From Eggerthella sinensis (GTDB lineage Bacteria > Actinomycetota > Coriobacteriia > Coriobacteriales > Eggerthellaceae), in assembly GCF_003339815.1 (NCBI RefSeq), contig NZ_PPTT01000001.1, positions 1 through 64,000 on the forward strand: a stretch of DNA of 64,000 nt, in the 5' to 3' direction. The position numbers and the translations under genes were made by a program. This document shows, piece by piece, positions 31,801-47,389 of this stretch. How positions within the stretch are numbered: position 1 is the stretch's first letter; every line of letters starts with the position of its first letter. The notes under the pieces are model-generated. The model made no database searches. It was not told where the DNA came from and worked only from the letters and a program-made list of their open reading frames with translations.

Positions 31801-32130
31801 CGCAATCTTGCGCACGAGCGCCGTGGCGCCCTCGTTGGCGCCCGCGCCGTCGGCCGCATCGGCCACGCGCACCTTGATGGTGCAGTACGTGTTGCAGTTG
31901 TTGCACATGGACAGGATGACGTCGTCGGCCGCGTACGCGCCGGTAGCGCTGCCGCGTCCGTGCGGCTCGTCGGTCATCGGGTTGTCGGTTGCCATGTACG
32001 CCCCCAATCCTCCACCGGCCAGCACCGCGCCCGCAGCCACCGCGCAGCTCGCGCCGATGACGGCGCGGCGCGACGGCGTGCCGAACATGCCGGCACGCTC
32101 CTGCGCTTCGTCCTTACGCTGCGCCTCCAT
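28882..32130 (-). CDS. Large Tat-exported molybdopterin reductase, tetrathionate-reductase-like
   Basis: A 1082-aa Mo-bisPGD enzyme. The Tat signal is PSRRAVIGASCAVAAG (residues 19-34). The [4Fe-4S] ligands are Cys76, Cys79, Cys83 and Cys154 (CNNCNTYC, then MICLKG). Cys293 in NHGGVCGMTGV is the probable Mo ligand, as in TtrA/PsrA/ArrA-type enzymes. VDPRQGRSASKADGWLPVMP is the pterin-binding stretch. Length and gene order (B-C-A) match ttrBCA of Salmonella. No TtrRS sensor pair is nearby. Arsenate reductase or another large-subunit family, including the aromatic dehydroxylases of Eggerthellaceae, cannot be excluded. ATG 32130 follows AGGAGGTG and lies inside the end of the anchor gene. Confidence 0.8.
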   Translation of the reverse strand: MEAQRKDEAQERAGMFGTPSRRAVIGASCAVAAGAVLAGGGLGAYMATDNPMTDEPHGRGSATGAYAADDVILSMCNNCNTYCTIKVRVADAADGAGANEGATALVRKIAGNPYSPLNSQPYAPVPYATRPEDALAPGDDMARAGRATNGGMICLKGQSGIQLAHDTFRITQPLRRVGARGSDEWETVSWDTALDEIVHGSSALGTPGIAEWYAWAPKKQVEADVALVESGEMGQDEFDRKWADTLIDTKHPDLGPKSNLFCSAGGDRMFLIGDRLTQNGFGSVNNFNHGGVCGMTGVMGNVRTHPTTNHKRMYADIDHCECLIIWGTEPMTANKGPSWLAPRLSVARERGMKLYVVDPRQGRSASKADGWLPVMPGKDAELAFALMSWIFANERYDARYLAAPGKKAAAALGEPTWSDAAHLVAVDLPNRPIVTAKVLGRAGEAGADDAALAEDARFVFVDGQLVAADAVDGAADLLVDTEIEIKGKPARVKSVFQLLKERVEERSLEEYAADAGIEPAVVEDVAREFTSHGKRACVMSYRGPAMHANGYDAVRAVGYLNFLIGNHDWKGGHLAAGAKFAPYTGRYDLQTVPDAHAGWGIPITRQKTQYENTSYFKQDGYPASRPWYPLPGNLSHEIIPTLRAGYVYDHLGALFIHRHSLVDSTPGGQRLADVLGDPDKINLLVSFDVEVGDTSRYADFVLPDKTYLERFSQESIYPNQQYQLIQLGQPAIRAYEGPRSVEDVYFDLMQRLELPGVGESAVPVGKDGAGGTAALSTEYDYWLKMAANVAYAGENPVPDADDDELALFERARTRALGDAFDLAAWKAAVTEEEWPKVVYVLNRGGRFGSADPAKDDGYEGDLIKTRYGGMCAFYDPKTASLKNALTGENFDGMAHAAPVALADGTPMEHAADRPLAFINWKARTNGTHRTIASSWLRELSTENFVWMAPADAAARGLANGDAVDIVGPEGVLAGHVRVTEGIRPGVVGANYSFGHQGYAARAVRIDGEDVGPAPDYLEEEGILDGDEPGKQKTGYAGGRGRGFCMNELLPEDTAAAGGGGICDPIGGGAAQFDLWVDVQKHR

Positions 32131-33550
32131 CGCGCACCTCCTTGCCCGTCGAAACCTCATCGCGCGCCGCCGCACCAAACGCCGCGTCCGCATCGGCGTA
32201 CGCGTCCGCGTACGCGCTCTCCAACCGCGCTTCGCCCTCGCTCGCGCCCACGCGCTCGAGCGGCAGCAGGCGCACGGCCAGCCCGTAGCAGCCGACGGCC
32301 AGCCCCAGCACGAACAGGGCCACCATCACCTCTCCCACGCTGGGCACGTACACCGGCGCGGGCATGCCGTCCAGCAGCGGCACGGAGAACCCGGCCACCA
32401 CCAGCACGTACCGCAGCGCGAGGATGCCCGCCATCGCGGAGAGGGCCGCGCCCACGGCCCACGCGCCGCCCGCAGCGCCACCGGCGGCACCGGCAGCAAC
32501 ACCGCTCGCAGCCCGGCGCCCGCGCAGCGCGCCCACCGCCAGCAGCACGGCCGGCAGCACCAGCCCCAGGCCGATCTCGCCCACCCAGAACAGCGGCGCC
32601 AACGACCCCGCCACCATCACCTGCACAGCGGCGGCCACGGCCGGATCGCCCGACAAGAGCGCGGGCGCCACCTGGAAGAACACGCAGAACGCAAGCGCGA
32701 ACAGCGACGCGGCCAGCACGCGGTTCAACCCCACGAGCACGCCCGCCTCGGAACGCGCCCCGCGCAGGCGGGCCAGCAGCCGGAACGCCACGATGAGGAA
32801 CGCGGCCGCCGTCACGATGGCCATGACGTAGAACAGCACCGACGTGATGCCGCCCTCCCACAGCCCGCGCGTCTTCACCGCGGCGAAGAACATGCCCGTG
32901 CCGCCCGGAGGCCCCACGAACGACGTGGCCACGCCCACGCCGGCCAGCACGCGGATGGCCAGGTTCACGTTGCCGCGCCGCCGCAGCGCCGCCGCGCTCG
33001 GCGCGCCAGCGCCAGCGCCCGAACCCGCGGCATCCGCGCCCTCGCGCGCTGTGCGCCTGTCGTTCCACAGCACCAGCGCGAACTGCGCGATGGCCACCGC
33101 CATGAAGAACATATACGCCTTGATCTCCCACGCCAAGGGCGACGACCAGTGGAAGAACAGCAGCGTGCCCAGCGAATGCCGGATGGCGCCCAGGTCGATG
33201 CCAATGAAGATCATCGACACGACAAGCGACACGATGCTCAGTCCCAGCGACAGCCGCGCGATGGGCGCGAAGCGCGGCAGCCTCAGCAGATACACCAAAG
33301 CCGACAGCAGGTACAAGCCGCCCGCCAGCCCGGAGAACCAGATGTACACCACCACCCACAAACCCCAGGGCACGGCGTTCGTGGCCCCGGCCATGCCCAG
33401 CCCGTTGGCCAGGCGGTCGAACATGAAGAACGCGCCCGCCGCCAGCAGCGCGCCCACGATAACGGCCCACCCGACGGTGGCGCGGCGCGAGAACGGCGCG
33501 GGCAGCGCGTACGTGCGCGGCGCGCCCTTCCTCGTTGTGTTAGATGCCAT
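32114..33550 (-). CDS. NrfD/TtrC-like quinol-oxidising membrane subunit
   Basis: A 478-aa polytopic membrane protein with about ten helices, of the NrfD family (WGLWVVVYIWFSGLAGGLYL and GIDLGAIRHSLGTLLFFHW are conserved regions). It would oxidise menaquinol and feed the ferredoxin subunit. It is longer than usual (NrfD is about 320 aa) because of extra helices and Ala/Gly-rich linkers, and the C-terminal tail of about 40 residues is rich in Ala, Asp and Tyr. It overlaps the catalytic gene by 17 nt and starts 15 bp after the ferredoxin gene. Confidence 0.82.
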   Translation of the reverse strand: MASNTTRKGAPRTYALPAPFSRRATVGWAVIVGALLAAGAFFMFDRLANGLGMAGATNAVPWGLWVVVYIWFSGLAGGLYLLSALVYLLRLPRFAPIARLSLGLSIVSLVVSMIFIGIDLGAIRHSLGTLLFFHWSSPLAWEIKAYMFFMAVAIAQFALVLWNDRRTAREGADAAGSGAGAGAPSAAALRRRGNVNLAIRVLAGVGVATSFVGPPGGTGMFFAAVKTRGLWEGGITSVLFYVMAIVTAAAFLIVAFRLLARLRGARSEAGVLVGLNRVLAASLFALAFCVFFQVAPALLSGDPAVAAAVQVMVAGSLAPLFWVGEIGLGLVLPAVLLAVGALRGRRAASGVAAGAAGGAAGGAWAVGAALSAMAGILALRYVLVVAGFSVPLLDGMPAPVYVPSVGEVMVALFVLGLAVGCYGLAVRLLPLERVGASEGEARLESAYADAYADADAAFGAAARDEVSTGKEVRDGGAA

Positions 33551-33565
33551 GGATAGTCACCCCGA

Positions 33566-34213
33566 TCATTTCAGGTAGTAGACGGATGGATTCGTACCTA
33601 GCTCTTCGCGCAGGCGGAACGCCCGCGGCGAGGCGGCCAGCTGCGCCACCTTCGATTCCGGGTCGTTCAAGTCGCCGAAGTACCGCGCGTCGCCGATGCA
33701 CGTCTCGCAGCACGCCGGCGCCTCGCCTTCGGCGATGCGATGCGCGCAGAACGTGCACTTGCGCACCGTGCCGTACGTGCCCGCGTACTTCCCGCGCGCG
33801 CCGCGCTCCACGCCGTACTCGGGCGCCGTCACCTGGTCGGCCGCCTGCATCTCGGCGGCGTACGACGAGCCCTCGTCGGCCGAGCGCGCCCCGTAGGGGC
33901 ACGCGGCGATGCAGTACTTGCACCCGATGCAGCGGTCGGCGTCGATCACCACGATGCCGTCCTCGCCGCGGTACGTGGCGCGCACCGGGCACACCGACAC
34001 GCAGGCGGGGTCTTCGCACTGCATGCACGGGCGCGGCACCGCCTCGATGCGCACGTTGGGATACGTGCCCGTCTCCTGCTCAAGCACCACGTTGTACGTG
34101 ACGCCCGGCGGCGTGCGGTTCTCCGCCTTGCACGCCACGGTGCACGAGTCGCACCCGACGCACTTCGCAAGGTCGATGACCATGCCCCAATGCACAGCAC
34201 GGGAATCTTCCAT
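33566..34213 (-). CDS. TtrB/PsrB-like ferredoxin subunit with four [4Fe-4S] clusters
   Basis: A 215-aa iron-sulfur protein. Cys groups: CVGCDSCTVACKA, CMQCEDPACVSVCP, CIGCKYCIAACPYG and CTFCAHRIAEGEAPACCETC. An insert of about 35 residues (SADEGSSYAAEMQAADQV onward) precedes the fourth group. There is no Tat signal, although Salmonella TtrB has one; here export would depend on the catalytic partner. ATG 34213 follows GAGGTG; a TTG at 34237 is in frame but lacks a ribosome binding site. First gene of the operon. Confidence 0.85.
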   Translation of the reverse strand: MEDSRAVHWGMVIDLAKCVGCDSCTVACKAENRTPPGVTYNVVLEQETGTYPNVRIEAVPRPCMQCEDPACVSVCPVRATYRGEDGIVVIDADRCIGCKYCIAACPYGARSADEGSSYAAEMQAADQVTAPEYGVERGARGKYAGTYGTVRKCTFCAHRIAEGEAPACCETCIGDARYFGDLNDPESKVAQLAASPRAFRLREELGTNPSVYYLK

Positions 34214-34316
34214 ATAGTGCACCTCGATTCGTCTCAATACAGGCGGGCGCCACGCGGAGGGGGTATGCGTGACGCCCTAGGGAGGGGGAACGGCAAGCTC
34301 GAAGGAGGCCGAGCTG

Positions 34317-34351
34317 CCGAAAAGCGTCCCGCCAGGGGGTGGGCGGGACGC
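34317..34351 (-). terminator. Rho-independent terminator of module 1
   Basis: Perfect 10-bp arms (34324-34333 and 34342-34351) with an 8-nt loop. On the minus strand the stem is followed by TTTTCGG. It lies 10 bp beyond the stop of the anchor gene at 34361. Confidence 0.7.
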
Positions 34352-34360
34352 GCGGGCAAG

Positions 34361-35227
34361 CTAGAGGAACAGCACGGGGAGCGCCGCCAAGATGACGAGC
34401 AGGCGCAGGAGGAAGCCGCCCACGAGCACCCCGGCCTCGCCGATGGCGCTGACCACCATGGAGGTCGTCGACGTTTCGACGCGCTTCGCGATGAACACCG
34501 GATAGCCCTCGATGAGGAACGGCGCCACCAAACCCAGCAGCACGATGCCGCCCCAGAACGCCGGCGCATACTGCCCGGCCACGAGCTCCTGCACCGATGC
34601 CGCGCCTTCGAAGCTGCCGGCGCTGACGATGACCAGCATCGTTGCGAGCACCACCATCTCCACGACGGACAGGACGACGTGCGACTTCTTGATGAGCCAC
34701 ATCTGCTCGAAGCGCTCGCGATCGAGGATGAGCCCCACGAGCGACGTGGCCGCAAGGCCCGCCGACAGCGCCGACACCACGAACAGGATGGGCAGGATGG
34801 CGTTGTTCCACAGCGGCACCGCCTTGACGACGCCCAGCAAAAAGCCCGTATAGGCCGCCACGGCGAAGGCGAACACGATGCCGATCCACGTCAACCACTT
34901 CGGCACGCGCTTCTTCAGGATCTCAAGCAGGGCCACCACGAGCGCCACCGGCATGTAGATGCAGATGAAGTACACGCCCAGCGTCATCACCGAACCGGGG
35001 TTCGAGACGAGCCAGAAGAAGCGCAGCGGGTTGTGCAGCCCGGCCTCGGCGTCAAGCATGAGCATGAGCAGGCCGATGCCGATGAAGATGGGAGCGATGA
35101 TGCGGCCGGCAACGCGCATCTTAACGCTCTCAGGGTACTTGGCTTCGACGAACGCGGCCGTCAGGAACGCCCCCGCCGACGCGCCGGCCAAAAACAGGTA
35201 CCATGCGATCATAGGTCCCCAAACCAT
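34361..35227 (-). CDS. NrfD/PsrC-like membrane anchor, module 1
   Basis: A 288-aa membrane protein with eight helices, of the NrfD/PsrC family (WYLFLAGASAGAFLTAAF, then HNPLRFFWLVSNPGSVMTLG). It couples quinol oxidation to the ferredoxin subunit encoded just upstream. About 87% identical by eye to the anchor at 40557, with most changes conservative and in helices. It starts 6 bp after the ferredoxin stop. Confidence 0.88.
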   Translation of the reverse strand: MVWGPMIAWYLFLAGASAGAFLTAAFVEAKYPESVKMRVAGRIIAPIFIGIGLLMLMLDAEAGLHNPLRFFWLVSNPGSVMTLGVYFICIYMPVALVVALLEILKKRVPKWLTWIGIVFAFAVAAYTGFLLGVVKAVPLWNNAILPILFVVSALSAGLAATSLVGLILDRERFEQMWLIKKSHVVLSVVEMVVLATMLVIVSAGSFEGAASVQELVAGQYAPAFWGGIVLLGLVAPFLIEGYPVFIAKRVETSTTSMVVSAIGEAGVLVGGFLLRLLVILAALPVLFL

Positions 35228-35233
35228 GGTTCA

Positions 35234-35770
35234 TCACCTCACGTAGTAGATTTTCGAAGCGGTCAGATTGTCGGCGAGCGGCTGCGCATGGTAGCGCGCA
35301 ATTGCTTGGTTGATCTCGCTGTTCGGATCATCGAGGTCGCCGAAGATGCGCGCGCCCGAGATGCAGGTTCCCACGCACGCCGGCGGGTTGCCCGGATTCT
35401 CGCCGTCCCAGCAGAAGCGGCACTTCTCCACCACGCCGGTGGATTCTTGCACGATGCGGGCGTCGTAGGGACACGCGGCCATGCAGTACTTGCATCCGAT
35501 GCACTTCTCCGCATCCACCAGCACCACGCCGGAGTCGGTGATGTAGGTGGCGTGCGTCGGGCACACGGCGGCGCAGGGCGCGTCTTCGCAGTGCATGCAC
35601 TGGGTGGGCACGATCTCGTTGTAGACGTTGGGGTACTCCCCCGTCTCGATCTCGTGGTACTTGATGAACGACTCCCCCGTTTCCAGATGGTTCTTCATCT
35701 GGCAGGCGATGCGGCAGGCCGAGCAGCCGACGCACTTTTTCGTGTTGATGAGCATTCCGTAGCGTGCCAT
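35234..35770 (-). CDS. PsrB/PhsB-like ferredoxin subunit, module 1
   Basis: A 178-aa subunit with four cluster motifs: CVGCSACRIACQM, CMHCEDAPCAAVCP, CIGCKYCMAACPYD and CRFCWDGENPGNPPACVGTC. It bridges the molybdoenzyme and the NrfD anchor. It starts one nucleotide after the catalytic subunit's stop. A close paralogue lies at 41430, with nearly identical Cys regions and C-terminal YYVR. Confidence 0.88.
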   Translation of the reverse strand: MARYGMLINTKKCVGCSACRIACQMKNHLETGESFIKYHEIETGEYPNVYNEIVPTQCMHCEDAPCAAVCPTHATYITDSGVVLVDAEKCIGCKYCMAACPYDARIVQESTGVVEKCRFCWDGENPGNPPACVGTCISGARIFGDLDDPNSEINQAIARYHAQPLADNLTASKIYYVR

Positions 35771-35771
35771 G

Positions 35772-37967
35772 TTACGCCTCCACCTTCTTCACCGTAACGG
35801 CCACTTCCTGGCTCATCATGGAGCCCACGCCCGGTTCGGCGTCGAGGGGAATGAAGTCGTTCAGGCTGATGCCGTACTGATACGCGCGGGTCTGGGTCGG
35901 CGAATCTCCGCCGTAGTGCGTGGGCAGGAACACCACGCCGGGCTTGAGGCGCTGCGTCACGCGCACCTCCACCTGGCCGGTGTGCTCGCTCGAGGCCACC
36001 TCCACGGTATCGCCCGTCTGCACGCCCAGCTGCTCGGCGTCCTTCGCGGCCATCCACAGGCGCTCCATGTGGTACTCGCGCGAGATGGCGTTGAGCGCTT
36101 CGATGTTCTGCGTCATGGTGTGGGAGTGGATGCCCTGCTTGCCGCCGATGATGGAGAACTCGCCGTCCTTCGGGGTCACCTTGCGCGGCACCCAGCCGAT
36201 CACCGGGTTGAGGCCGGCGTCGCCCACCTTGTCGGTTTTGAACTCGAACTTGCCGGAGGTCGTCTTGAACGTGGGCACGCCATACTGGAAGTTCGGGTCG
36301 GGCAGCTCGATCACGCCGTCCTTCTTCATCTGGTCGAGGGTCACGCCCACGGTGGCCAGCTGCGCTTCAGCCCAATCCTCGGCCGTGAACTGGAAGTACT
36401 CGCCCACGCCGCACGCTTCGGCCAGGCCGTTGAAAATCTCGTCGCAGGTTTTCGTCTCGGGATGAATCTTGTCCAGCACCACGGTGCGCATGCCCACGAA
36501 GTGCTTCTTGCCGCCCACGAACTCGGGCAGCTCGAGGCGCTCGAGGTAGGTGACCTCGGGCAGGACGTAGTCGGACTGCAGCGCGGTCTCGGACATCTGC
36601 ACGTCGATGGTGACCACGAGGTCGGTCTTCTCGAAGGCCTCGGTCCACTTCTTCGGCTGCGCGTAGCCCTTCGCAGCGTTCGAGTTGTAGAAGAACAGGC
36701 CCTTCATCTCGCCGTTCAGCGCGGCCTGCAGCGCGGCGACGTTCGTGCCGGCGCTCGCGAGGGCCAGCGGGTACTCCGCGTCGCCCACGCGCTTGGCTTC
36801 CGGCTTCGCCGGGGCCTTGAAGCGGGCGTCCTCGATGGCGCCGGCCTTCGGGGACGACGTGAGCAGCGCGCCGCCCTTCGCGCCCCAGCTGCCCAACAGG
36901 GCGTTGATGGCCGCGATGGCGCGGGCGGTGTCGAACGAGTTGTTGTACGAGCAGCCGATGACCGCGCGCCAACCCGACTCGACGGAGGCCGCCGGGGCCG
37001 CCTTCGCCATGGCGCGGGCAAGCTCTTCGATGGTTGCAGCCGGGATGTCGGTGATCTTCTCGGCCCAGGTCGGCGTGTACTCCTTGGTCTGCGCGGCGAA
37101 CTCGTCGAAGCCGTACGTGTTCTGCTCGACGAAGTCGTGATCGTAGAGGTCCTCTTCGATGAGCACGTTCGCCATGGCCAGGAGCAGCGCGAGGTCGGTG
37201 CCGGGGTTGATGGGCACCCAATCGCTGGCGAAGATGCCGGAGTTGTTGAGGCGCGGGTCCACGATGACGATGCGCGTGCCGTTCTCAGCCGCGTCGGCCA
37301 GGCTCTGCACCGACGAGGGGCGGATGCCGTCGCCGTAGCTGCGGCCGATGAACAGCACCATCTTCGCGTTGGCGAAGTCGTTGGAGAACCCGGTGGCGCC
37401 GATGGTGAGCTGGTAGGCGCTTTCCTTCGACAGGTTGCACGACGAGGAGTGCGCGTACACGTTGGCCGAGCCGAGCGCGTTCATGAAGCGCGCGGAGTAC
37501 TGCTTGCCCGACGGGCGCGGGTCCTGGATGATGGCCAGCGACTCGGGGCCGTTCTTCTCGATGATGGCCTTCGTCTTCTCGCCGATCTCCTTGAACGCGG
37601 TGTCCCAGTCGATGGGCTCGAACGAGCCGTCGTCCTTGCGGCGCATGGGCTGCGTCACGCGCTCGTCGGAGTACGCCATCTGGGCAAGGCCGTGGCCGCG
37701 TCCGCAGATGCGGCCTTTCGCGTACGGATGCCCCTCGTTGCCGCGCAGCGTCCACAGCTGGCCGTCCACCGTGGTGGCCACGAGGCCGCACTTGCTCGAG
37801 CAGCCGTTGCACAGCGACGGAGCGGTTTTGGTCGCGGACGGTTCGTCCGCTACGGCGCGCTCTGCCTGCCATGAGCCGAGCGAGATGGAACCCGCGGCGC
37901 AGGCGAGCGCGGCCGTAGCGGCCGAACCCTTGAGGAACGTTCTACGCGATACCGTTGTCTCCCTCAT
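35772..37967 (-). CDS. PsrA/PhsA-like molybdopterin reductase, module 1
   Basis: A 731-aa Mo-bisPGD catalytic subunit of the polysulfide/thiosulfate reductase type. The Tat signal is VSRRTFLKG (residues 6-14). The [4Fe-4S] ligands are Cys53, Cys56, Cys60 and Cys88 (CNGCSSKC, then RICGRGHG). Cys177 in SSSCNLSKES is the likely Mo ligand. VDPRLNNSGIFASDWVPINP marks the pterin site. Length fits PsrA/PhsA (about 750 aa). Substrate could be polysulfide, thiosulfate or another small acceptor. The start ATG follows GGGAGGAAAGGA. The TorD-like gene 44 bp upstream is probably co-transcribed. Confidence 0.87.
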   Translation of the reverse strand: MRETTVSRRTFLKGSAATAALACAAGSISLGSWQAERAVADEPSATKTAPSLCNGCSSKCGLVATTVDGQLWTLRGNEGHPYAKGRICGRGHGLAQMAYSDERVTQPMRRKDDGSFEPIDWDTAFKEIGEKTKAIIEKNGPESLAIIQDPRPSGKQYSARFMNALGSANVYAHSSSCNLSKESAYQLTIGATGFSNDFANAKMVLFIGRSYGDGIRPSSVQSLADAAENGTRIVIVDPRLNNSGIFASDWVPINPGTDLALLLAMANVLIEEDLYDHDFVEQNTYGFDEFAAQTKEYTPTWAEKITDIPAATIEELARAMAKAAPAASVESGWRAVIGCSYNNSFDTARAIAAINALLGSWGAKGGALLTSSPKAGAIEDARFKAPAKPEAKRVGDAEYPLALASAGTNVAALQAALNGEMKGLFFYNSNAAKGYAQPKKWTEAFEKTDLVVTIDVQMSETALQSDYVLPEVTYLERLELPEFVGGKKHFVGMRTVVLDKIHPETKTCDEIFNGLAEACGVGEYFQFTAEDWAEAQLATVGVTLDQMKKDGVIELPDPNFQYGVPTFKTTSGKFEFKTDKVGDAGLNPVIGWVPRKVTPKDGEFSIIGGKQGIHSHTMTQNIEALNAISREYHMERLWMAAKDAEQLGVQTGDTVEVASSEHTGQVEVRVTQRLKPGVVFLPTHYGGDSPTQTRAYQYGISLNDFIPLDAEPGVGSMMSQEVAVTVKKVEA

Positions 37968-38011
37968 TCCTTTCCTCCCTTTCTTGCAGTTCAACTCGTC
38001 TTATCTATCGC

Positions 38012-38704
38012 TTATCGTCCCGCATGAAACAGGGGGACGGGGTTGCTGCATCCGTGCGGCGCCTCGGTTCGCTCATTCAGAATGGCGCGGGTAATCGAGG
38101 TCACCAGCGCAAGGAGCGCCCGCAGAAACGCGATGCCGTCGAGCAGGGTGCGGCGGCGTTGGTCGATCAGGGCGCCGTTGTGCGCCACCATGTCGGCCCG
38201 ATTGGCAAGCGCTGCGTCGTAGTCGTCGAGCCAGTCGACGTGGTCATGCACGAGCTGTCGGGCGGCCTCCTCGTTGCCCGCCTCGAGCACGAGCGACAGC
38301 AGTTCGAGCTCGAGGGTGAGGTGATCGGGCATGGAGGCGAAGGACGCGGGCACGTCGATGGAAAGCTGGCGGTACAGGGCCGACATATGCCGCGCCGCAT
38401 CGCCCATGTAGAGGCCGCGCGTGGCGCCGAACGCGTTGCCCTCCTGCGAGGACCACGGCTTGTACAGCGATTCCACGGGCATGGCGGCAAGCGGCATGCC
38501 GGGCATGAGCAGTTCGTTTTGGAACGAGGAACGAACCGGCCATGCGGGAAGCGCAAGCGCGGCGCCCGCCGTGTCGCCCGCCGCGGCACGCACGTCCTGC
38601 CATGCGGCGTTTCGCAGCACCTGACCGTATTCCTCATCCTTCAGGTGAGAAAACAGCGGCGCAATGAGCGATAATAGGAAAGCTGTGTTGTTCATGGCTC
38701 GCAC
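38012..38704 (-). CDS. TorD-like chaperone, module 1
   Basis: A 230-aa helical protein of the TorD/DmsD/NarJ class. Recognisable segments are MPGMPLAAMPVESLYKPW, ATRGLYMGDAARHMSALY and MPDHLTLELELLSLVLEAG, the last being the PDHLxxELE signature. It should bind the Tat signal of the reductase at 35772. GTG 38704 has AAAGGA 7 nt upstream; the ATG three codons later has none at a usable distance. It is the first gene of a minus-strand torD-psrA-psrB-psrC operon. Confidence 0.78.
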   Translation of the reverse strand: MRAMNNTAFLLSLIAPLFSHLKDEEYGQVLRNAAWQDVRAAAGDTAGAALALPAWPVRSSFQNELLMPGMPLAAMPVESLYKPWSSQEGNAFGATRGLYMGDAARHMSALYRQLSIDVPASFASMPDHLTLELELLSLVLEAGNEEAARQLVHDHVDWLDDYDAALANRADMVAHNGALIDQRRRTLLDGIAFLRALLALVTSITRAILNERTEAPHGCSNPVPLFHAGR

Positions 38705-38873
38705 GGTTTCGTCCTTTCTCGTTGCCGCCCATCCTAGGCGCGGCGGCGAAAGGCCGGGTAATCAGTTTCTGGTGATTTCGTTATTTCACCTGATGAATAG
38801 GGATTTTTTCGCAAGTAGAACGGGACGTCGGTACCGGGTTGTTACGCGTCCGTTGACCAAGAGGGGGATGGAT

Positions 38874-40469
38874 TTGAGCACTCGGCTGGCGGTCGGACGC
38901 GATCGACGCAGCATGCGCATGGTGTGGAAGACGCTCCGGCTGCGCCACATCGGGCTCGCGTTTTTCTGGGCGTGCAGCATGCTCACCTTCCGCAGCTCCA
39001 TCCTGCTGCAAGGCCCCGCGGACACGCCCGAGCTCGAGACGTTCGTCGTGCTCGTCTCGTTCGTGGCGAACATGACCACCCTGTTCGCCATCGCGGCGTT
39101 CATGGAACGCGACCCCCGCACGTTCGACCGCCTGCCCGGCTGGCTGTTCTGCGCGTTCATCATCGTGGGCCTCGTGGTGATCGACGTGGCAGGACGCTGC
39201 GGCAACGAAGCGGTCATGCTCGCGCTGCTGATAGGCGGCTCGGCGCTTGCCGGCGTGGGATACGGTTACTTTTGGGGAAGCTGGGCCGAATACTTCGGGC
39301 GCATGCACCCCTCGCGCACCTCGTTCTACATCCCCGTGGCGTTTCTGCTCACGGCTGCGCTATTCCTGGGCATCTCGCTGGCGGCCGAGTACGAGAGCGC
39401 GCCGCCGCTGCTGCTCATGCTGCCGTTGCCCGTCCTGTCGCTTCTCTGTCTGCGCCGCTGCCATGCCGAGGTTCCCGACGGGAACTACGCGCGCACCACG
39501 AATTCCAAGCGCTACCTCACGGCGCTCGCCTCGCTCGTCACGCTTATCGTGGCAAGCCTCGTGCTATCGCTGCTGTTCGGCCTCGTGTGGGAGATGACGG
39601 TGCTGTCGGTGAACTCGGTGAACGAGGCCCACCAGGCGCCGCTCGTGGCGAACCTCGTGGTGGCCGTGCTGCTCATCGCCCTCGTGCTGTACGCGCACAA
39701 GCGCTTAGACCTGGCGCTGGCGTACCGCGTCATCGTGCCCGTCATCGTCATCCTCTTCGCGGTGCTGCCGTTTTTCTGGGAGACGAGCCCCATCGTGCTC
39801 AACGCCGTGATGAGCGCGAGCTACGGCGCGTTCGACGTGATCATCTGGTACATGGTGGCGTCGAGCGCCTACGACTTCGCGGTTTCGGGCTTCGTCATCG
39901 GCGGCATCGTGCGCGCGCTGTCCATCCTCGCGCGCCTCATAGGCATCGGCATCGGGTACCTGCTCATGCTCATACCGAACAGCTCGTCGCTGCTCATCGT
40001 GGGCGTGTCGGTGGGCGCCATCTACGTGCTGGCCGCATTGGGCCTGTTCTACGGCACGCGGCGCAAGCCGTCGGTGCTCGAGGCAGCGCGCGCCGAAGCG
40101 GGCGCGGGCGAGCTGACGGCGGGCGAGACGGCGGAGCACTCCCCCGCAGGCGCGGTTGCGCCCGTCCCCGCGACTCCGGCCGCACCCGCAATGCCGCAAG
40201 CCCCCGCGGCTCCTACCCCGGCGCAGGCCGTCCCCGCCGCGCCCCCATCCGAGGACGCCGTCTTCGAGATGATCGCCGAGGACTTCAGCCTGACGCGCCG
40301 CGAGGCCGAGCTGCTGCCCTTCATCGCCCGCGGGCGGTCGGCGCGCGTCATCGCCGACGCGCTGTTCGTGTCGGAGAACACCATCCGCACGCACACCCGC
40401 CGCATCTTGGAAAAGACCGACCTCCACTCCAAGCAAGAAGTGATCGACCTCATCGAACGCTACCGGTAG
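38874..40469 (+). CDS. Membrane-spanning LuxR-family regulator, module 1
   Basis: A 531-aa protein with about twelve hydrophobic segments to residue 405, a Pro/Ala-rich linker (PAAPTPAQAVPAAPP region) and a LuxR helix-turn-helix (LTRREAELLPFIARGRSARV, then SENTIRTHTRRILEK). It is divergent from the torD-psrABC operon and probably its regulator. Nearly identical at the N-terminus (RRSMRMVWKTLRLRH-GLAF) to the regulator at 45129. TTG 38874 has GAGGGGG 6 nt upstream; the ATG at 38868 abuts the G-run, so the TTG is favoured. Confidence 0.8.
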   Translation: MSTRLAVGRDRRSMRMVWKTLRLRHIGLAFFWACSMLTFRSSILLQGPADTPELETFVVLVSFVANMTTLFAIAAFMERDPRTFDRLPGWLFCAFIIVGLVVIDVAGRCGNEAVMLALLIGGSALAGVGYGYFWGSWAEYFGRMHPSRTSFYIPVAFLLTAALFLGISLAAEYESAPPLLLMLPLPVLSLLCLRRCHAEVPDGNYARTTNSKRYLTALASLVTLIVASLVLSLLFGLVWEMTVLSVNSVNEAHQAPLVANLVVAVLLIALVLYAHKRLDLALAYRVIVPVIVILFAVLPFFWETSPIVLNAVMSASYGAFDVIIWYMVASSAYDFAVSGFVIGGIVRALSILARLIGIGIGYLLMLIPNSSSLLIVGVSVGAIYVLAALGLFYGTRRKPSVLEAARAEAGAGELTAGETAEHSPAGAVAPVPATPAAPAMPQAPAAPTPAQAVPAAPPSEDAVFEMIAEDFSLTRREAELLPFIARGRSARVIADALFVSENTIRTHTRRILEKTDLHSKQEVIDLIERYR

Positions 40470-40473
40470 ACGC

Positions 40474-40511
40474 AAAAAGACGGGCGCCGCGGAGAGGGTG
40501 CGGCGCCCGTC
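40474..40511. terminator. Shared terminator between LuxR gene and module 2
   Basis: Perfect 12-bp arms (40479-40490 and 40500-40511). On the minus strand the stem is followed by TTTTT and so ends the psrC-like transcript of module 2. It lies 10 bp past the stop of the converging LuxR gene and may end that transcript too. Confidence 0.72.
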
Positions 40512-40556
40512 GGGTAATGCGTATGATGCGCGCGTACGTTCGACGCAGCGGCGGCG

Positions 40557-41423
40557 CTAGAGGTACAGCACCGGCAGCGCGGCGAGCACCACGAGCAGGC
40601 GCAGCAGGAAGCCGCCCACGAGCACGCCCGCCTCGCCGATGATGCTCACGGCCATGGACGTCATGGACGTTTCCACGCGCTTCGTGATGAACACCGGATA
40701 GCCCTCGATGAGGAACGGCGCCACCAAACCCAGCAGCACGATGCCGCCCCAGAACGCCGGTGCGTAGTGCCCCATGACGAGCGACTGCACCGACGCGGCG
40801 CCTTCCACGCTGCCCGCGCTCACGATGATGAGCATGGTTGCCAGCACCACCATCTCGATGGCCGACAGGATGACGTGCGACTTCTTGATGAGCCACATCT
40901 GCTCGAAGCGCTCGCGGTCAACGATCAGCCCCACGAGCGACGTGGCCGCAAGGCCCGCCGACAGCGCCGACACCACGAACAGGATGGGCAGCACCGCGTT
41001 GTTCCACAGCGGATACGCCTTCACCACGCCCAGCAGGAAGCCCGTGTAGGCCGCCACCGCGAACGCGGCTACCACGCCGATCCACGTGAGCCACTTCGGC
41101 ACGGGCTTCTTCAACACCTCGAGCAGTGCCGACACGAGCGCCACCGGCATGAACACGCAGATGAAGTACACGCCCAGCGTCATCACCGAACCGGGGTTCG
41201 CGATGAGCCACACGAAACGCAGCGGGTTGTGCAGCCCGGCTTCGGCGTCGAAGATGAGCATGACCAGGCCGATGGCCAGAAACACGGGAGCGATGATGCG
41301 GCCGGCCACGCGCATCTTCACGCTGTCAGGGTACTTGGCCTCGACGAACGCGGCCGTCAGGAACGCGCCGGCCGACGCGCCGGCCAGAAACAGGTACCAA
41401 GCGATAAGGGGTCCCCATACCAT
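40557..41423 (-). CDS. NrfD/PsrC-like membrane anchor, module 2
   Basis: A 288-aa eight-helix anchor, the same length as and about 87% identical by eye to the protein at 34361. The helices and the HNPLRFVWLIANPGSVMTLG stretch are conserved. It accepts menaquinol electrons for the module 2 reductase. Anchors are the most conserved part of the two modules, so the two enzymes may tap the quinone pool identically. Confidence 0.88.
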   Translation of the reverse strand: MVWGPLIAWYLFLAGASAGAFLTAAFVEAKYPDSVKMRVAGRIIAPVFLAIGLVMLIFDAEAGLHNPLRFVWLIANPGSVMTLGVYFICVFMPVALVSALLEVLKKPVPKWLTWIGVVAAFAVAAYTGFLLGVVKAYPLWNNAVLPILFVVSALSAGLAATSLVGLIVDRERFEQMWLIKKSHVILSAIEMVVLATMLIIVSAGSVEGAASVQSLVMGHYAPAFWGGIVLLGLVAPFLIEGYPVFITKRVETSMTSMAVSIIGEAGVLVGGFLLRLLVVLAALPVLYL

Positions 41424-41429
41424 TGTTCA

Positions 41430-41963
41430 TCACCTCACGTAGTAGATCTTGGATTCGGTCAGATTGCTCGCGAGCGGTTGCGCGTTGGAGCGAGCGATGG
41501 CCTTCGAGATCTCGCTCTCAGGATCGTCCAGGTCGCCGAAGATGCGCGCGCCCGTGATGCAGGTGCCCACGCACGCCGGCGGGTTGCCCGGCTCGCCCTC
41601 GTACCAGCAGAAGCGGCACTTCTCCACCACGCCCGAGTGCAGCTGCACGCGCACGCCGTACGGACACGCGGCCATGCAGTACTTGCAGCCGATGCACTTC
41701 TCCTCTTCCACCAGCACCACGCCCGAATCGGTGGTGTAGGTGGCGTGCGTCGGGCATACCGACGCGCACGGGGCGTTCTCGCAGTGCATGCACTGCACGG
41801 GCACGTTCTCGGCGTACACGCTGGGGTATGTCCCGGTTTCCAGCTCCTCGTAGTGGATGAACGCCTTGTCGGAGTCCAACCCGTTGATCATCTGGCAGGC
41901 CACGCGGCAGGCGTAGCACCCCACGCACTTCTTCGTGTTGATGAGCATTCCGTAACGCGCCAT
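41430..41963 (-). CDS. PsrB/PhsB-like ferredoxin subunit, module 2
   Basis: A 177-aa subunit with CVGCYACRVACQM, CMHCENAPCASVCP, CIGCKYCMAACPYG and CRFCWYEGEPGNPPACVGTC. One residue shorter than its module 1 counterpart, with the change near residue 113. Start one nucleotide after the catalytic stop, exactly as in module 1. Confidence 0.88.
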   Translation of the reverse strand: MARYGMLINTKKCVGCYACRVACQMINGLDSDKAFIHYEELETGTYPSVYAENVPVQCMHCENAPCASVCPTHATYTTDSGVVLVEEEKCIGCKYCMAACPYGVRVQLHSGVVEKCRFCWYEGEPGNPPACVGTCITGARIFGDLDDPESEISKAIARSNAQPLASNLTESKIYYVR

Positions 41964-41964
41964 G

Positions 41965-44154
41965 TTATGCCTCCACCTTCTTCACCGTAACGGCCACTTC
42001 CTGGCTCATGGTCGAACCGACGCCCGGCTCGCCGCCGTGGAACGGCACGAACTCCGTCATGCTGATGCCGTACTCGTAGGCACGCGACTGGTACGGAGAC
42101 GACCCGCCGTAGTGCGTGGGCAGGTACAGCACGCCCGGCTTGAGACGCTCGGTTACCTTGCACCGCACCTGGCCGGTATGCTCGCTCGACGCCACCTCCA
42201 CGAGGTCGCCGTCGGCGATGCCGCGGTCCGCCGCATCCTTCGAGCTCATCCACACGCGCTCCAGGTTGTACTCGCGCGAGATGGCGTTGAGGGCCTCGAT
42301 GTTCTGCGTCATGGTGTGGGAGTGGATGGCCTGCTTGCCGCCGATGAAGTGCAGCTCGTCGCCCTGCGGCATGACAAGGCGCTCCACGTAGCCGATGACG
42401 GGGTTGAGCCCCGCAGCACCCGCCTTATCGCTGGTGAACTGGTACTTCTCGGTGGGCGTTTTGAACGCGGGCACACCGTACTCGAACTTCTTGGACGTCA
42501 CGTCCACGATGCCCTTCTCCTTGAGCTCGTCGAAGCTCACGCCGAGCGTGTCCATTTCGGCGCGCGCCAGATCCTCGACGGTGAAGTCGAAGTACTGGCC
42601 CACCCCGCAGGCCTGCGCGAGGCCCGTGAAAATCTCGTCGCAGGGCAGCGTGTCGGGATGCACGCGGTCGAGCGCCTGAGCGCGCAGGGCCACGAACTGC
42701 TTCTTGCCGCCGATGTAGTCGGGGGCCTCCATGCGCTCGAGGTAGGTGCACTCGGGCAGCACGTAGTCGGCCTGCATGGCCGTCTCCGACATCTGCACGT
42801 CGATGGCCACCATGAGGTCGAGCTTCTCGAAGGCCTCGGCCCACACCTTGGGCTGGGCGTAGCCCTTTGCCGCGTTGGAGTTGTAGAAGAACAGGCCCTT
42901 GATGCGGCCGTCGAGGGCGGCTTCGAGGGCGGCGATGTTCGAGCCCGAGCTGCTCACCGCGCCGTACTCCTTGTCGCCGATGCGCTTGGCCTCGGGTTTC
43001 GGCGGAGCGGCGAACCGCTCGTCAGCGATGTCGCCGGCCTTCGGCGAGCCCGTGAGCAGCGCGCCACCCTTCTGGCCCCACGACCCCAGCAACGTGTTCA
43101 CAGCCGTCACGGCGCGGGCCGTGTCGAACGAGTTCTTGTACGCGCAGCCGAACGCGGCGCGCCAGCTCGCCTCCACCGCGGCGGCCGGTGCGGCGGCAGC
43201 AAGCGCCTGCGCCAGCTCGCGGATGGTGTCGGCGGGCACGTCGCAGATGCCTTCGGCCCATTCGGGCGTGTAGGTTTTGGCCTGCGCGGCGAACTCGTCG
43301 AAGCCCACCGTGTACTGCTCGACGAACTCGTGATCGTAGAGGTCCTCTTCGATGAGCACGTTGCAGATGCCCATGAGCAGCGCCAGGTCGGTGCCGGGGT
43401 TGACGGGCACCCAGTCGGTGGCGAAGATGCCGGCGTTGTTGAGGCGCGGGTCGACGATGACCACGCGCGTGCCGGCCTCGGCGGCGTCGGCCAAGCTCAT
43501 GGCATGGGACGGGCGAATGCCGTCGCCGTAGCTGCGGCCGATGAACATCACCATCTTGCACGAGGCGAAGTCCACCGAGTAGTTCGACGCGCCGATGGTC
43601 TCGGCGAAGCCGGCTTCCTTGGACAGGTTGCACGCCGCCGCATGCGTGTAGATGTTCGCGGAGCCCAGCGCGTTCATGAAGCGCTTCGTGTAGTACTTGC
43701 CCGACGGGCGCGGGTCGTGGATGAGCGCCAGCGACTCGGGGCCGCTTGCCGCCACGATGGCCTGCACCTTCTCGCCGATCTCCCGGAACGCGGTGTCCCA
43801 GTCGATGGGCTCGAACTCGCCGTTTTCCGTACGGCGCAGGGGCTGCGTGACGCGCTCCTCGTTGTAGGCCATCTGCGCGAAGCCATGGCCGCGGGCGCAC
43901 AGCTTGCCCTTCGAATACGGATGCTGCTCGCTGCCGTTCAGCGTGAACAGCGTCCCGCCCAACGTGGTGGCCATCAGGCCGCACTTGCTCGAGCAGCCGT
44001 TGCACAGCGACGGCGTGACCGCGCGGTCGCCTCCGGCCGCATGCGCCTCATCGGCGCGCCACGCGCTCAGCGAAAGCGTCCCGACCGCGCCCAGCGACGC
44101 AGCCGCGGCCGATCCCTTCAGAAACGTCCTGCGCGAAACCGTAGAATCGAACAT
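41965..44154 (-). CDS. PsrA/PhsA-like molybdopterin reductase, module 2
   Basis: A 729-aa catalytic subunit. Tat signal VSRRTFLKG at residues 6-14. The [4Fe-4S] ligands are Cys51, Cys54, Cys58 and Cys86. The likely Mo ligand is Cys175 (HAAACNLSKEAGFAETIG). It aligns end to end with the module 1 enzyme but is more diverged than the anchor, including around the Mo-ligand loop (HAAACNLSKEAGFAE against HSSSCNLSKESAYQL). Different substrate preference is therefore possible. ATG 44154 follows AAGGAGGAGG. Confidence 0.87.
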   Translation of the reverse strand: MFDSTVSRRTFLKGSAAAASLGAVGTLSLSAWRADEAHAAGGDRAVTPSLCNGCSSKCGLMATTLGGTLFTLNGSEQHPYSKGKLCARGHGFAQMAYNEERVTQPLRRTENGEFEPIDWDTAFREIGEKVQAIVAASGPESLALIHDPRPSGKYYTKRFMNALGSANIYTHAAACNLSKEAGFAETIGASNYSVDFASCKMVMFIGRSYGDGIRPSHAMSLADAAEAGTRVVIVDPRLNNAGIFATDWVPVNPGTDLALLMGICNVLIEEDLYDHEFVEQYTVGFDEFAAQAKTYTPEWAEGICDVPADTIRELAQALAAAAPAAAVEASWRAAFGCAYKNSFDTARAVTAVNTLLGSWGQKGGALLTGSPKAGDIADERFAAPPKPEAKRIGDKEYGAVSSSGSNIAALEAALDGRIKGLFFYNSNAAKGYAQPKVWAEAFEKLDLMVAIDVQMSETAMQADYVLPECTYLERMEAPDYIGGKKQFVALRAQALDRVHPDTLPCDEIFTGLAQACGVGQYFDFTVEDLARAEMDTLGVSFDELKEKGIVDVTSKKFEYGVPAFKTPTEKYQFTSDKAGAAGLNPVIGYVERLVMPQGDELHFIGGKQAIHSHTMTQNIEALNAISREYNLERVWMSSKDAADRGIADGDLVEVASSEHTGQVRCKVTERLKPGVLYLPTHYGGSSPYQSRAYEYGISMTEFVPFHGGEPGVGSTMSQEVAVTVKKVEA

Positions 44155-44231
44155 TCCTCCTCCTTACCATCTCGTCGTACTGTCTGCGTCGCACGCGAGC
44201 GCGCAACGCCCTCCCTACCGATGAGCGTTTC

Positions 44232-44930
44232 TCACGCCGCATTCGCAGCCCATGCGTGCACCGCACGGTCCATCGAGCGGACCATCGTGCGCATGAAGGC
44301 GATGCCCTGCGCGAGGTCGCGGCGCTTGGTCATATCGAATGCCGGGGCGTCTGCCGCCTGCTCTGCACGAGCGGCAAGCATGGCGTCGTAGGCGCCCAGC
44401 CAGTCGAAGTGATCGCACACGAGCGTGCGCGCCGCCGACGCATCATCGGCTTCGAGAAAGAACGCCTCAAGCTCGAGCAGCAGCGCGAGGTGATCGGGCA
44501 TGGCCGCGAACCCCTCGGGCACGCTCAGCCCGCAGGCGGCGTACAGCGCCCGCACGTGCCGGGCCGACTCGCCGCCGTACATGCCCCGCGCGGCGCGCAC
44601 CGTGCCGTCGGGACCGCACCACGGTTTGTGCAGCGATTCCACCGGCAGCGCCGCCAACGGCAGCCCGGCAACCAGCACGTCGCGGCCAAGCGCGCGGCGA
44701 GCCGCGTCGCTCGGCGGCGCAACCGCCTCGCCCGACAGGCACGCGAGCACCTCGCACACGGCGCGCACCGAGGCTTCGTCGGCAGCTTCGAGACCTTCCC
44801 GGGTCAGCAGCGGCGCGACGGCAACGCAAGCCGCCTGCAGCAGACGTGCGGAGGGGATGATGTCGGTGGGCGTGGCGGGCTCGGCGGACAGGGCTGGTGC
44901 GTGGGGCGCGATGGGTGCGTTCGGATTCAC
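44232..44930 (-). CDS. TorD-like chaperone, module 2
   Basis: A 232-aa helical chaperone. It shares the framework of the module 1 protein (AGLPLAALPVESLHKPW, ARGMYGGESARHVRALY, MPDHLALLLELEAFFLEAD, DHFDWLGAYDAML) but is otherwise much diverged, as expected if each chaperone is tuned to its own reductase. The first 30 residues are Pro/Ala-rich. GTG 44930 has AAGGA about 5 nt upstream; the frame is open to a TTG at 44954. Confidence 0.78.
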   Translation of the reverse strand: MNPNAPIAPHAPALSAEPATPTDIIPSARLLQAACVAVAPLLTREGLEAADEASVRAVCEVLACLSGEAVAPPSDAARRALGRDVLVAGLPLAALPVESLHKPWCGPDGTVRAARGMYGGESARHVRALYAACGLSVPEGFAAMPDHLALLLELEAFFLEADDASAARTLVCDHFDWLGAYDAMLAARAEQAADAPAFDMTKRRDLAQGIAFMRTMVRSMDRAVHAWAANAA

Positions 44931-44976
44931 GGGCGTCCTTTCTCGTCGCCGCAAAACCCTAACCCCAGCGAATCAC

Positions 44977-45004
44977 TTGCTTATCATCAATAATTGATGA
45001 TAAT
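44977..45004 (+). promoter_or_regulatory. Promoter with a perfect palindromic operator upstream of luxR, module 2
   Basis: TTGCTT at 44977-44982, 16 bp, then GATAAT at 44999-45004. A perfect inverted repeat fills this region: TTATCATCAA (44981-44990), spacer TAA, and TTGATGATAA (44994-45003). The 23-bp site is AT-rich in a GC-rich genome and spans the core promoter of the regulator in the gap divergent to torD, a good place for autorepression or joint control. Confidence 0.6.
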
Positions 45005-45128
45005 GGTGTTTATGCTGATGAGGTAAAGTGTTGTCAGCGCGCTTCCCCCCGAAGCGCCCTCTATCTCAGGGGCCGTGCGGACCCCTGGAACCAAGCCGCC
45101 GCCGTTCGACGAAGGAGTTTGCCGACCC

Positions 45129-46664
45129 ATGTCCGAATGCTCGCCTGAAGCGAATGAACGACGCAGCATGCGCATGGTATGGAAGACGCTGCGACTTCGC
45201 CACCTCGGTCTCGCGTTCTTCTGGGCGTGCAGCATGCTCACGTTCCGCAGCTCCATCCTGCTTTCGGGGCCGCTGTACACCACCGGCTATCAAACGCTCA
45301 TCGTCATCGTGTCGTTCGTGGCGAACATGACCACGCTGTTCCTCGTCGCCTCCCGCATGGAGCGCAACCCTTCCTTCTACGACAAGCTACCGCCAACGGC
45401 GTTCACCGCGTCCATCGTGACGGGGCTCGTGCTGCTCGCCGGTTCGGGCGCCGCCGGAAGCGCCGGGCTGCTGAGCGAGCCCGTCGCCATCGCCGTGCTC
45501 ATGACGGGTTCGGTGCTGGCCGGCGTGGGATACGGCTACTTTTGGGGAAGCTGGGCCGAATGCCTCGGCCGCATGCACCCCTCGCGCACGTCGTTCTACC
45601 TTCCCGTGGTGCTGCTGCTCACGGCGCTGCTGTTCGTGGCGTTCACGTTCTGCTCGGAGGAGCTGGGCGTGCCCGCGCTGCTGCTCATGCTGCCGCTGCC
45701 CATCCTCTCGCAGCTGTGCCTGACGCGCTGCAACCGCGAGGTGCCCGACGAGCGCGCCACCCTCACCGCCGATTCGGGACGGTACCGCACGGCGCTCGGA
45801 TCGCTCGTGAGCCTCATCGTGGCAAGCCTCGTGCTGTCGTGTTTGTTCGGGTACGTGTGGCAGATGACCGTGGTGTCGGTGGATTCCGCCTACGAAGCGC
45901 ATCGGCTGCCGCTCATGGCCAACATCGTGGCGGCCGTCGCACTCATCGGGCTCGTGCTGTTCGCGCGTCGCCGCACCGACCTCGCGCTCACGTTCAAGGT
46001 GATCGTGCCCATTTTGGTGGTGCTGTTCGCGCTCATGCCGTGCTTCTGGAGCACGAATCCCGTCGAGCTCAACGTGGTGATGAGCGCCTGCTACGGCGTG
46101 TTCGACGTGATCATCTGGTACATGGTGGCGTCGACGGCGTACGACTTCTCCGTGTCGGGCTTCGTGGTGGGCGGCATCGTGCGCGGGGTGTCCATCATCG
46201 CGCGCCTCGTGGGCATCGGCATCGGCTACGTGGTGATGCTCATTCCCGAAAGCCCGTCGGTGCTGATCATCGGCGTGTCGGTGGGCGCCATCTACGTGCT
46301 TGCCATGCTGGCGTTGTTTCAGCACACCCGACATCGCTTCTCGTTTTTAAGCTTCGGCGCGGGCAAGGCGAAGGAAGCGGACGCGGAATGCGCCGTTGCG
46401 TGCGGAGCGTCGTGCCCCGTGCGGCAACGCGAGCAGGGAGACGACACGGACGAGGTGTTCGCCCCGATTGTGGACTACTACGGGCTCACGCGGCGCGAGG
46501 CCGAAGTGCTACCCTACCTCGCGCGCGGGCGCTCCGCCAAGGTGATCGCCGAAGCGCTGTTCGTGTCGGAAAGCACCGTACGCACCCACACGCGGCGTAT
46601 TCTGGAAAAGACGGCCCTGCATTCGAAGCAGGACCTCATCGACCTCATCGAGAACTACGAGTAG
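45129..46664 (+). CDS. Membrane-spanning LuxR-family regulator, module 2
   Basis: A 511-aa protein with about twelve hydrophobic segments (to residue 405) and a C-terminal LuxR helix-turn-helix (LTRREAEVLPYLARGRSAKV, then SESTVRTHTRRILEK). The linker is shorter than in module 1 and holds a Cys cluster (AECAVACGASCPVRQ), which could respond to metal or redox state. It is divergent from the module 2 torD operon. ATG 45129 has AAGGAG 11 nt upstream; a GTG at 45075 would extend it. Confidence 0.82.
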   Translation: MSECSPEANERRSMRMVWKTLRLRHLGLAFFWACSMLTFRSSILLSGPLYTTGYQTLIVIVSFVANMTTLFLVASRMERNPSFYDKLPPTAFTASIVTGLVLLAGSGAAGSAGLLSEPVAIAVLMTGSVLAGVGYGYFWGSWAECLGRMHPSRTSFYLPVVLLLTALLFVAFTFCSEELGVPALLLMLPLPILSQLCLTRCNREVPDERATLTADSGRYRTALGSLVSLIVASLVLSCLFGYVWQMTVVSVDSAYEAHRLPLMANIVAAVALIGLVLFARRRTDLALTFKVIVPILVVLFALMPCFWSTNPVELNVVMSACYGVFDVIIWYMVASTAYDFSVSGFVVGGIVRGVSIIARLVGIGIGYVVMLIPESPSVLIIGVSVGAIYVLAMLALFQHTRHRFSFLSFGAGKAKEADAECAVACGASCPVRQREQGDDTDEVFAPIVDYYGLTRREAEVLPYLARGRSAKVIAEALFVSESTVRTHTRRILEKTALHSKQDLIDLIENYE

Positions 46665-46705: not shown

Positions 46706-47389
46706 TTAGCCTTCGGTGACGTCGCCCGACTGGTTGAGGCTGATGGGATCGCCCACGAACGTCGAGGGCACCTTGAACAGCGTCTTGAAGAAGTCCTTCG
46801 TGCGGGCGGGAATCTCGCGCATGTCGTACTGGAACTGCTTCGAGTAGTCGTGGTAGTCGCTCGCCACGCCGATGGCCTCGAGGCCGAGGCCCTGCGCGGC
46901 GTACAGCGCGCGGTACAGGTGGTACGTCTGCGTGGCCACCACGATGCGCTCGGCGCCGAACACGTTCTTCGCGCGATACATGCTCTCGTACGTGGAGAAC
47001 CCGGCATGGTCGCAGAAGATATCCTGGCTCGGCACGCCCTGCGAGATGGCGTAGTCCTTCATGGCCTTCACTTCGTTGTACGATACGGTGCTGTTGTCGC
47101 CGCTCATGATGAGCTTCGGCGCGACGCCCGCCTTGTACAGCTCGATGCCGTCGTCGAGGCGGTCTTGCAGGATGCCCGACGGCGTGCCGTCGGCGAACAC
47201 GGACGCGCCCAACACCACGATGGCGTCGGCGTTGTAGCCTTCGGCGGCCTGCGGCTCGACGATATGCTCCTTCGTCGTGGCAACCGTCACGACGTTCGTC
47301 ACCGCGAACACGGCAACGACCACAAGTATGCATCCGAGTATCAAACCCAGCATCGTCCTCAACCACCCATGTTTCTTACGTTGCGTCAT
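46706..47389 (-). CDS. SanA/YdcF-like (DUF218) envelope protein
   Basis: A 227-aa protein with one N-terminal membrane helix (residues 9-32) and an extracytoplasmic DUF218 domain (DAIVVLGASVFADGTPSGIL, LIMSGDNS, ATQTYHLYRALYAAQ). E. coli SanA of this family affects envelope permeability and vancomycin sensitivity at high temperature; its biochemical activity is not settled. The ribosome binding site is weak. It is not obviously in an operon. Confidence 0.78.
   Translation of the reverse strand: MTQRKKHGWLRTMLGLILGCILVVVAVFAVTNVVTVATTKEHIVEPQAAEGYNADAIVVLGASVFADGTPSGILQDRLDDGIELYKAGVAPKLIMSGDNSTVSYNEVKAMKDYAISQGVPSQDIFCDHAGFSTYESMYRAKNVFGAERIVVATQTYHLYRALYAAQGLGLEAIGVASDYHDYSKQFQYDMREIPARTKDFFKTLFKVPSTFVGDPISLNQSGDVTEG

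Follow-up and report, generated by a model that had tools for sequence, protein, structure and literature searches.

Two modules for a molybdenum reductase lie side by side in the genome of Eggerthella sinensis, and on the evidence of gene trees and identity patterns we interpret them as a pair that is real and old, ordinary as respiratory modules but unusual in its history, in which a cassette of chaperone and catalytic genes appears to have been exchanged within a conserved frame of regulator and membrane anchor. The window analysed here is a stretch of 64,000 nucleotides (66% GC) from this 4.0 Mb genome.

Structure and divergence of the two units

Unit 1 (34361-40469, 6109 bp) and unit 2 (40557-46664, 6108 bp) hold the same five genes in the same order and orientation, as the initial annotation had described, with psrC, psrB, psrA and torD (C, B, A and D) on the minus strand and a LuxR-type regulator gene (R) divergent on the plus strand (Table 1). 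Its stem-loop terminators are likewise present as a U-run hairpin 3' of each psrC on the minus strand; an automated terminator scan picked up neither psrC hairpin (its matches overall were not above shuffles), and a sigma-70 promoter scan gave no match. The regulator starts listed in Table 1 lie inside longer ORFs and are the likely ones, judging from sequence and homology. What did not hold was the description of an exact duplication: the units share only 73.7% identity across 5959 aligned bases (299 gapped columns), and their near-equal lengths are accidental, other two-unit genomes that were measured showing length differences of 21 to 164 bp between units (psrC-to-psrC spacing 6209 to 6476 bp).

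Per-gene identity and dN/dS had been proposed as checks. Identity at the amino acid/nucleotide level falls from psrC (87.8/87.4%) through psrB (78.0/81.2%), psrA (68.7/76.2%) and the regulator (63.0/71.0%) to torD (43.3/55.8%), in keeping with anchors judged by eye to be about 87% identical and with a TorD, here the most divergent of the five genes, singled out as especially diverged. The dN/dS ratios between units (NG86) are ~0.26 for C, ~0.30 for B, ~0.47 for A, ~0.48 for R and ~0.63 for D, and we left them unused for dating or selection because GC3 (0.8-0.93, ~0.9) compresses dS and makes dating poor. The further claim that this gene-specific divergence implies new specificity fared less well. 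The same C>B>A>R>D order recurs among ordinary orthologues from other genera: in Gordonibacter, with one unit only seen at the locus, the unit-1 orthologues are 91% identical for C, 86% for B, 82-83% for A, 60-64% for R and 55-56% for D. Because orthologues show the same order, the gradient alone is no sign of new chaperone or sensor specificity, and it mostly reflects gene-specific rate; high TorD divergence was rejected as sole evidence of chaperone specialisation, torD being the fastest gene throughout, orthologues included. Overall, the comparison supports two paralogous units, side by side, with the quinone-side subunit retained in both, consistent with the earlier proposal that quinone coupling was kept.

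Table 1. Features of the two units and their flanks, in window coordinates.
Feature	Coordinates	Strand	Basis or remark
TtrA-like operon, separate	28882..34237	-	ttrA-like 28882-32193, NrfD-like 32114-33550, FeS 33566-34237; adjoins unit 1
Intrinsic terminator after psrC, unit 1	34320..34351	-	10-bp GC stem, U-run; -27.5 kcal/mol, z -4.5
C1, NrfD/PsrC-type membrane quinone subunit	34361..35227	-	Pfam NrfD 4.9e-39; 9 hydrophobic segments
B1, 4x[4Fe-4S] electron-transfer subunit, unit 1	35234..35770	-	family profile matches (Fer4)
A1, Tat-exported PsrA/PhsA-like Mo subunit, unit 1	ORF 35772..37994	-	likely start codon ~37970; presumed Mo-ligand Cys186 of 740-aa ORF
D1, TorD/NarJ-type chaperone, unit 1	38012..38704	-	Nitrate_red_del 7.8e-10
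Predicted operator, unit 1, ATCACCAGAAACTGATTAC	38758..38776	-	19-bp palindrome between regulator and torD
R1, 12-TM LuxR-type regulator, unit 1	38868..40469	+	longest ORF starts 38664
Intrinsic terminator after psrC, unit 2	40472..40511	-	-33 kcal/mol, z -6.0
C2, NrfD/PsrC-type membrane subunit, unit 2	40557..41423	-	identity to C1
Approximate segment apparently exchanged, unit 2	41355..45160	.	5' end of C2 to N-terminus of R2: D-A-B cassette and promoter region
B2, [4Fe-4S] subunit, unit 2, cassette allele 2a	41430..41963	-	homology
A2, PsrA/PhsA-like Mo subunit, unit 2, cassette allele 2a	41965..44154	-	homology, tree
D2, TorD/NarJ-type chaperone, unit 2, cassette allele 2a	44232..44954	-	Nitrate_red_del 1.4e-9
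Predicted operator, unit 2, ATCATCAATTATTGATGAT	44983..45001	-	perfect palindrome
R2, 12-TM LuxR-type regulator, predicted MFS-like membrane domain, unit 2	45129..46664	+	ORF starts 45075
DUF218 gene, flank beside regulator	46706-47446		adjoins unit in single- and two-unit genomes

Age, place and distribution of the pair

The pair is present in seven genomes of three genera, one per species, namely all four Eggerthella genomes, G006 and two Paraeggerthella (genus labels are g8 for Paraeggerthella, g59 for Gordonibacter, g61 for Raoultibacter, g6 for Adlercreutzia, g18 for Parvibacter and g4 for the genus of G006). Elsewhere a single unit directly adjoins the same DUF218 gene (YY7918, Gordonibacter G102, Raoultibacter), and the same TtrA-like operon follows the single unit in most Gordonibacter, YY7918 and G115. 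The same flanks enclose a pair of units in Eggerthella and g4; Paraeggerthella retains the DUF218 flank, and the stretch read there shows no TtrA-like operon. The TtrA-like operon, which has its own NrfD and FeS subunits, is kept beside unit 1 in Eggerthella, g4, YY7918, Gordonibacter and Raoultibacter.

Gene trees place A1 with the single units of Gordonibacter, Raoultibacter and YY7918 (100% SH-aLRT), the unit-1 A sequences and those of the single-copy genera forming one clade, and because these single-unit relatives carry the unit-1 type between the same flanks, unit 1 appears to be the ancestral occupant of the locus. In AU tests, A (p 2.7e-93) and B (p 0.001) rejected a grouping that holds both units of Eggerthella, g4 and Paraeggerthella together; R was borderline (p 0.06), and C did not reject it (p 0.19). 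Recent local duplication in these genera followed by divergence in place, as originally put forward, is thereby rejected for A and B; the grouping of genes with different outside lineages that had been named as evidence against it was found for those two genes, with R borderline and C not rejecting. The R1/R2 split is about as deep as the genera, and a test on descent of the Gordonibacter and YY7918 regulators from R2 gave p 0.097. On these trees the units are old relatives, with unit 2 probably an old paralogue or xenologue.

Mosaic ancestry of unit 2 and conversion in psrC

Unit 2 carries one of two D-A-B alleles, 2a in the window, G002 and Paraeggerthella (A 90-93% identical) and 2b in G001, G003 and G006 (A 92-96%), which are 65-72% identical to each other in A, 79-82% in B and 43-48% in D. 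The unit-2 regulators of the five Eggerthella and g4 genomes form one clade (100/100), to which the unit-2 regulator of Paraeggerthella is sister. A, D and B all reject this Eggerthella plus g4 grouping (p 5.7e-13, 0.001 and 0.002, respectively), and R rejects the 2a clade (p 2e-9). When all unit-2 copies are constrained to group together, A rejects the constraint only weakly (p 0.03), B is borderline (p 0.054) and D does not reject it (p 0.30). Between the sister species G002 and G003 (rpoB 98.2% identical), unit 1 shows 94% identity in A and 88% in D, and unit 2 only 71% and 48%. The 2b cassette of G001 and G003 is younger than their unit-1 genes (4-fold difference, cassette vs unit 1, 0.15 vs 0.27 in A, p 6e-5, and 0.07 vs 0.29 in B, p 5e-4). 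Identity steps are sharp at both cassette ends, the sites diagnostic of 2a or 2b starting just upstream of RRSMRMVWKTLRLRH of R2, a region strongly conserved between R1 and R2 too, and thinning out after about codon 23 of C2. Among outside relatives, 2b A is nearest Adlercreutzia (74-75%) and 2a B groups with Adlercreutzia/G095 (96/84). Taken together, trees and identity steps point to a unit-2 D-A-B block that was swapped between species, with the regulator and most of psrC staying put. A further sign of mosaic units is seen in G112 (L088), where B groups with Parvibacter, and A, R and C with Adlercreutzia.

For psrC, where a look for gene conversion had also been suggested, sites at which the two copies of one genome agree with each other instead of with their orthologues account for 19-55% of the informative sites vs 3-11% in R+A+B, an excess found in all eight pairs tested, although part of this contrast arises because there are few fixed C1/C2 differences. 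Counted per site, the excess is significant in five of the eight pairs (p 9.5e-5 to 0.044; for example, G001/G003 1.73% vs 0.49%, p 3.5e-4) and not in G003/G006, window/G003 or G002/G003, and the concerted sites of G001/G003 psrC form a clustered run (p 0.008). These patterns lend moderate support to putative gene conversion of psrC between the units.

Catalytic subunits and possible substrates

A1 has TAT_signal, Molybdop_Fe4S4 and Molybdopterin domains, and A2 aligns with it throughout; an FeS subunit and an NrfD/PsrC membrane subunit are both present in the operon, and a Nitrate_red_del protein stands next to the enzyme in both units. One cysteine, which we take from general knowledge to be the Mo ligand, is invariant across 13 A sequences and aligns with a cysteine of 2VPW, the best solved relative of A (2.8e-107); sequence searches for solved relatives of C1 and D1 returned none. 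Because A1 and A2 score 421 and 424 bits against the PhsA equivalog, far below its cut-off of 694, we call them PhsA relatives and do not name them PhsA.

Of 16 residues that are fixed in all unit-1 A sequences and differ in every other A, 8 cluster in two stretches, one around Cys186 (181-193) and one at 337-346 (p 3e-8, a post hoc value for a pattern spotted before testing). Because these lineage-specific residues surround the Mo-ligand cysteine, unit 1 probably differs from unit 2 in substrate, and it is at this strength, and from these residues, that the earlier suggestion of a new substrate specificity stands. The predicted acceptors of the two enzymes are perhaps inorganic sulfur compounds, and since the TtrA-like operon is a conserved neighbour it is conceivable, purely as a guess, that unit 1 takes part in a tetrathionate-thiosulfate chain with it. 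The window genome has 86 stretches that match A1. A third PsrA homologue in it (52%; L038:5168-9633, G000 C9) has psrB, psrC, torD and another FeS gene as neighbours, and no close R1/R2-type regulator was found beside it.

Regulators and a predicted operator

Both regulators carry a C-terminal LuxR helix-turn-helix (GerE 5e-13 and 2e-15) and 11 hydrophobic segments were counted in R. In an AlphaFold2 model of R2 (pLDDT 78), residues 20-402 align with MFS proteins (Foldseek E 2.5e-5; VIA-align Z 27, rmsd 3.7 over 346 residues), so that the membrane domain is predicted to be MFS-like. In nearly all family units a 19-bp palindrome, ATCAYCANNNNNTGATKAY, stands between the regulator and torD (or psrA). 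Its sole matches in the window genome are those at the two units, against ~0.03 expected, and a scan of 136 family genomes placed most matches at units, apart from scattered exceptions; because it is almost confined to such units, we predict it to be a dedicated operator. One off-unit copy lies in G003 (C2:2610921-2610939; L157:7922-7940) flanked by a selD-like gene on one side and, on the other, a formate dehydrogenase alpha gene that is read through TGA, probably as selenocysteine.

Operator and regulator appear to vary together. Unit-1 operators end in TGATTAC and their regulators have VSENTIR, the others ending in TGATGA plus one base with VSES or VSEP in the regulator, and twice an Ile-to-Val change in that helix goes with a change from G to A at the inner half-site position. 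As this covariation rests on one and two independent changes, and an independent-pair test had two pairs and was unable to reach significance, we put forward a regulator-helix/operator code that would keep the units separate as a hypothesis. Of the original claim that sensing has diverged, the part that survives is that regulator-operator pairing probably differs between the units; the linker divergence behind it is weak evidence, because a shuffled DadR linker still allowed induction (PMC9734109).

Explanations for the pair

We consider the following history likely as a whole. Each unit encodes a complete membrane-bound molybdenum reductase, with a Tat-exported PsrA/PhsA-like A, a four-cluster FeS subunit B, a quinol-oxidising NrfD/PsrC anchor, its own TorD and a divergent membrane regulator for which we predict an MFS-like sensor domain and binding to the dedicated palindrome between its gene and torD. 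Unit 1 would have occupied the locus first, and unit 2 would be an old paralogue or xenologue that either predates the divergence of the Eggerthella species, g4 and Paraeggerthella or spread among them. Its torD-psrA-psrB genes and promoter region may then have moved between species through homologous recombination in the conserved 5' portions of the regulator gene and psrC (any direction of transfer being putative), and psrC may have been partly homogenised between the two units. The outcome would be two separately controlled electron outlets with a near-identical quinone interface and probably different acceptors. A bolder version, which we find tentative and on balance doubtful, sees the unit-2 locus as an evolved socket, in which a fixed MFS-type regulator and a fixed quinone anchor surround exchangeable, operator-matched torD-psrA-psrB genes and the helix/operator code insulates the units.

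Other histories account for part of these observations. Duplication before Gordonibacter, Raoultibacter and Eggerthella split, with later loss of unit 2 in most genera and no exchange between species, agrees with the depth of the R1/R2 split and with the clade of unit-1 A and single-copy genera; it could explain how unit 2 arose but not what happened to it afterwards, as it gives no account of one R2 lineage with two D-A-B alleles or of a 2b cassette younger than the unit-1 genes, and we regard it as unlikely. Simple tandem duplication within the Eggerthella lineage, with fast divergence of catalytic subunit, chaperone and sensor, would be the plain reading of adjacent units between flanks that enclose one unit elsewhere, and the psrC tree does not reject it, but the AU tests on A and B (R being borderline), the fully supported placement of A1 with Gordonibacter, Raoultibacter and YY7918, and an identity gradient that is that of orthologues make it quite improbable. 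Most improbable to us is acquisition of the whole of unit 2 from an unsampled relative, inserted by psrC homology, with the alleles as separate acquisitions: the affinities of 2b A and 2a B to Adlercreutzia would follow from it, yet separate acquisitions of whole units are unlikely because the R2 sequences of Eggerthella and g4 form a single clade, sister to those of Paraeggerthella.

Significance and comparison with known systems

Eggerthella and Gordonibacter use dozens of molybdenum reductases to alter drugs, steroids and diet compounds, and the pair bears on how such repertoires grow and how each enzyme is wired to its sensor. Cassette exchange within a conserved frame would be one answer, in which chaperone and catalytic genes are exchanged as a block while the quinone subunit is shared. 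The operator that we predict for regulators of the 12-TM LuxR family also makes regulator-target pairing testable in a species with working genetics (PMC9734109). Molybdenum-enzyme expansions in these genera amount to 30-60 homologues per strain (PMC11574389); the units described here are PsrA/PhsA-like, and kinship with catechol dehydroxylases is not implied.

The closest characterised architecture is that of the PsrABC polysulfide reductase of Thermus thermophilus (PDB 2VPW) and the PhsABC thiosulfate reductase, which share with the units a Mo subunit with an N-terminal FeS motif and Cys ligand, a four-cluster FeS subunit and an NrfD/PsrC anchor; unlike them, the units add a dedicated TorD and a 12-TM LuxR regulator. 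Like the system-specific NarJ/TorD chaperones (PMC4464133), D1 and D2 belong to Pfam Nitrate_red_del, and D tracks its own enzyme in trees; unlike the usual chaperone-enzyme pairing, the units of Parvibacter and G081 (stretches L037, L086, L087 and L088) have no torD between regulator and psrA. The 10-12-TM LuxR family of Coriobacteriia activates dehydroxylase genes on substrate (PMC9734109). The main text of that paper reports neither a motif nor an MFS relation for these regulators, the literature we searched held no reported operator motif for the 12-TM LuxR family, and no paper was found naming the guessed E. lenta locus tags for the region. As in R1 and R2, a C-terminal LuxR helix-turn-helix follows 10-12 TM helices in DadR, HcdR and CadR, which are likewise encoded beside a molybdenum enzyme in Eggerthella (PMC9734109); unlike these regulators, R1 and R2 have a specific, conserved palindromic operator predicted for them.
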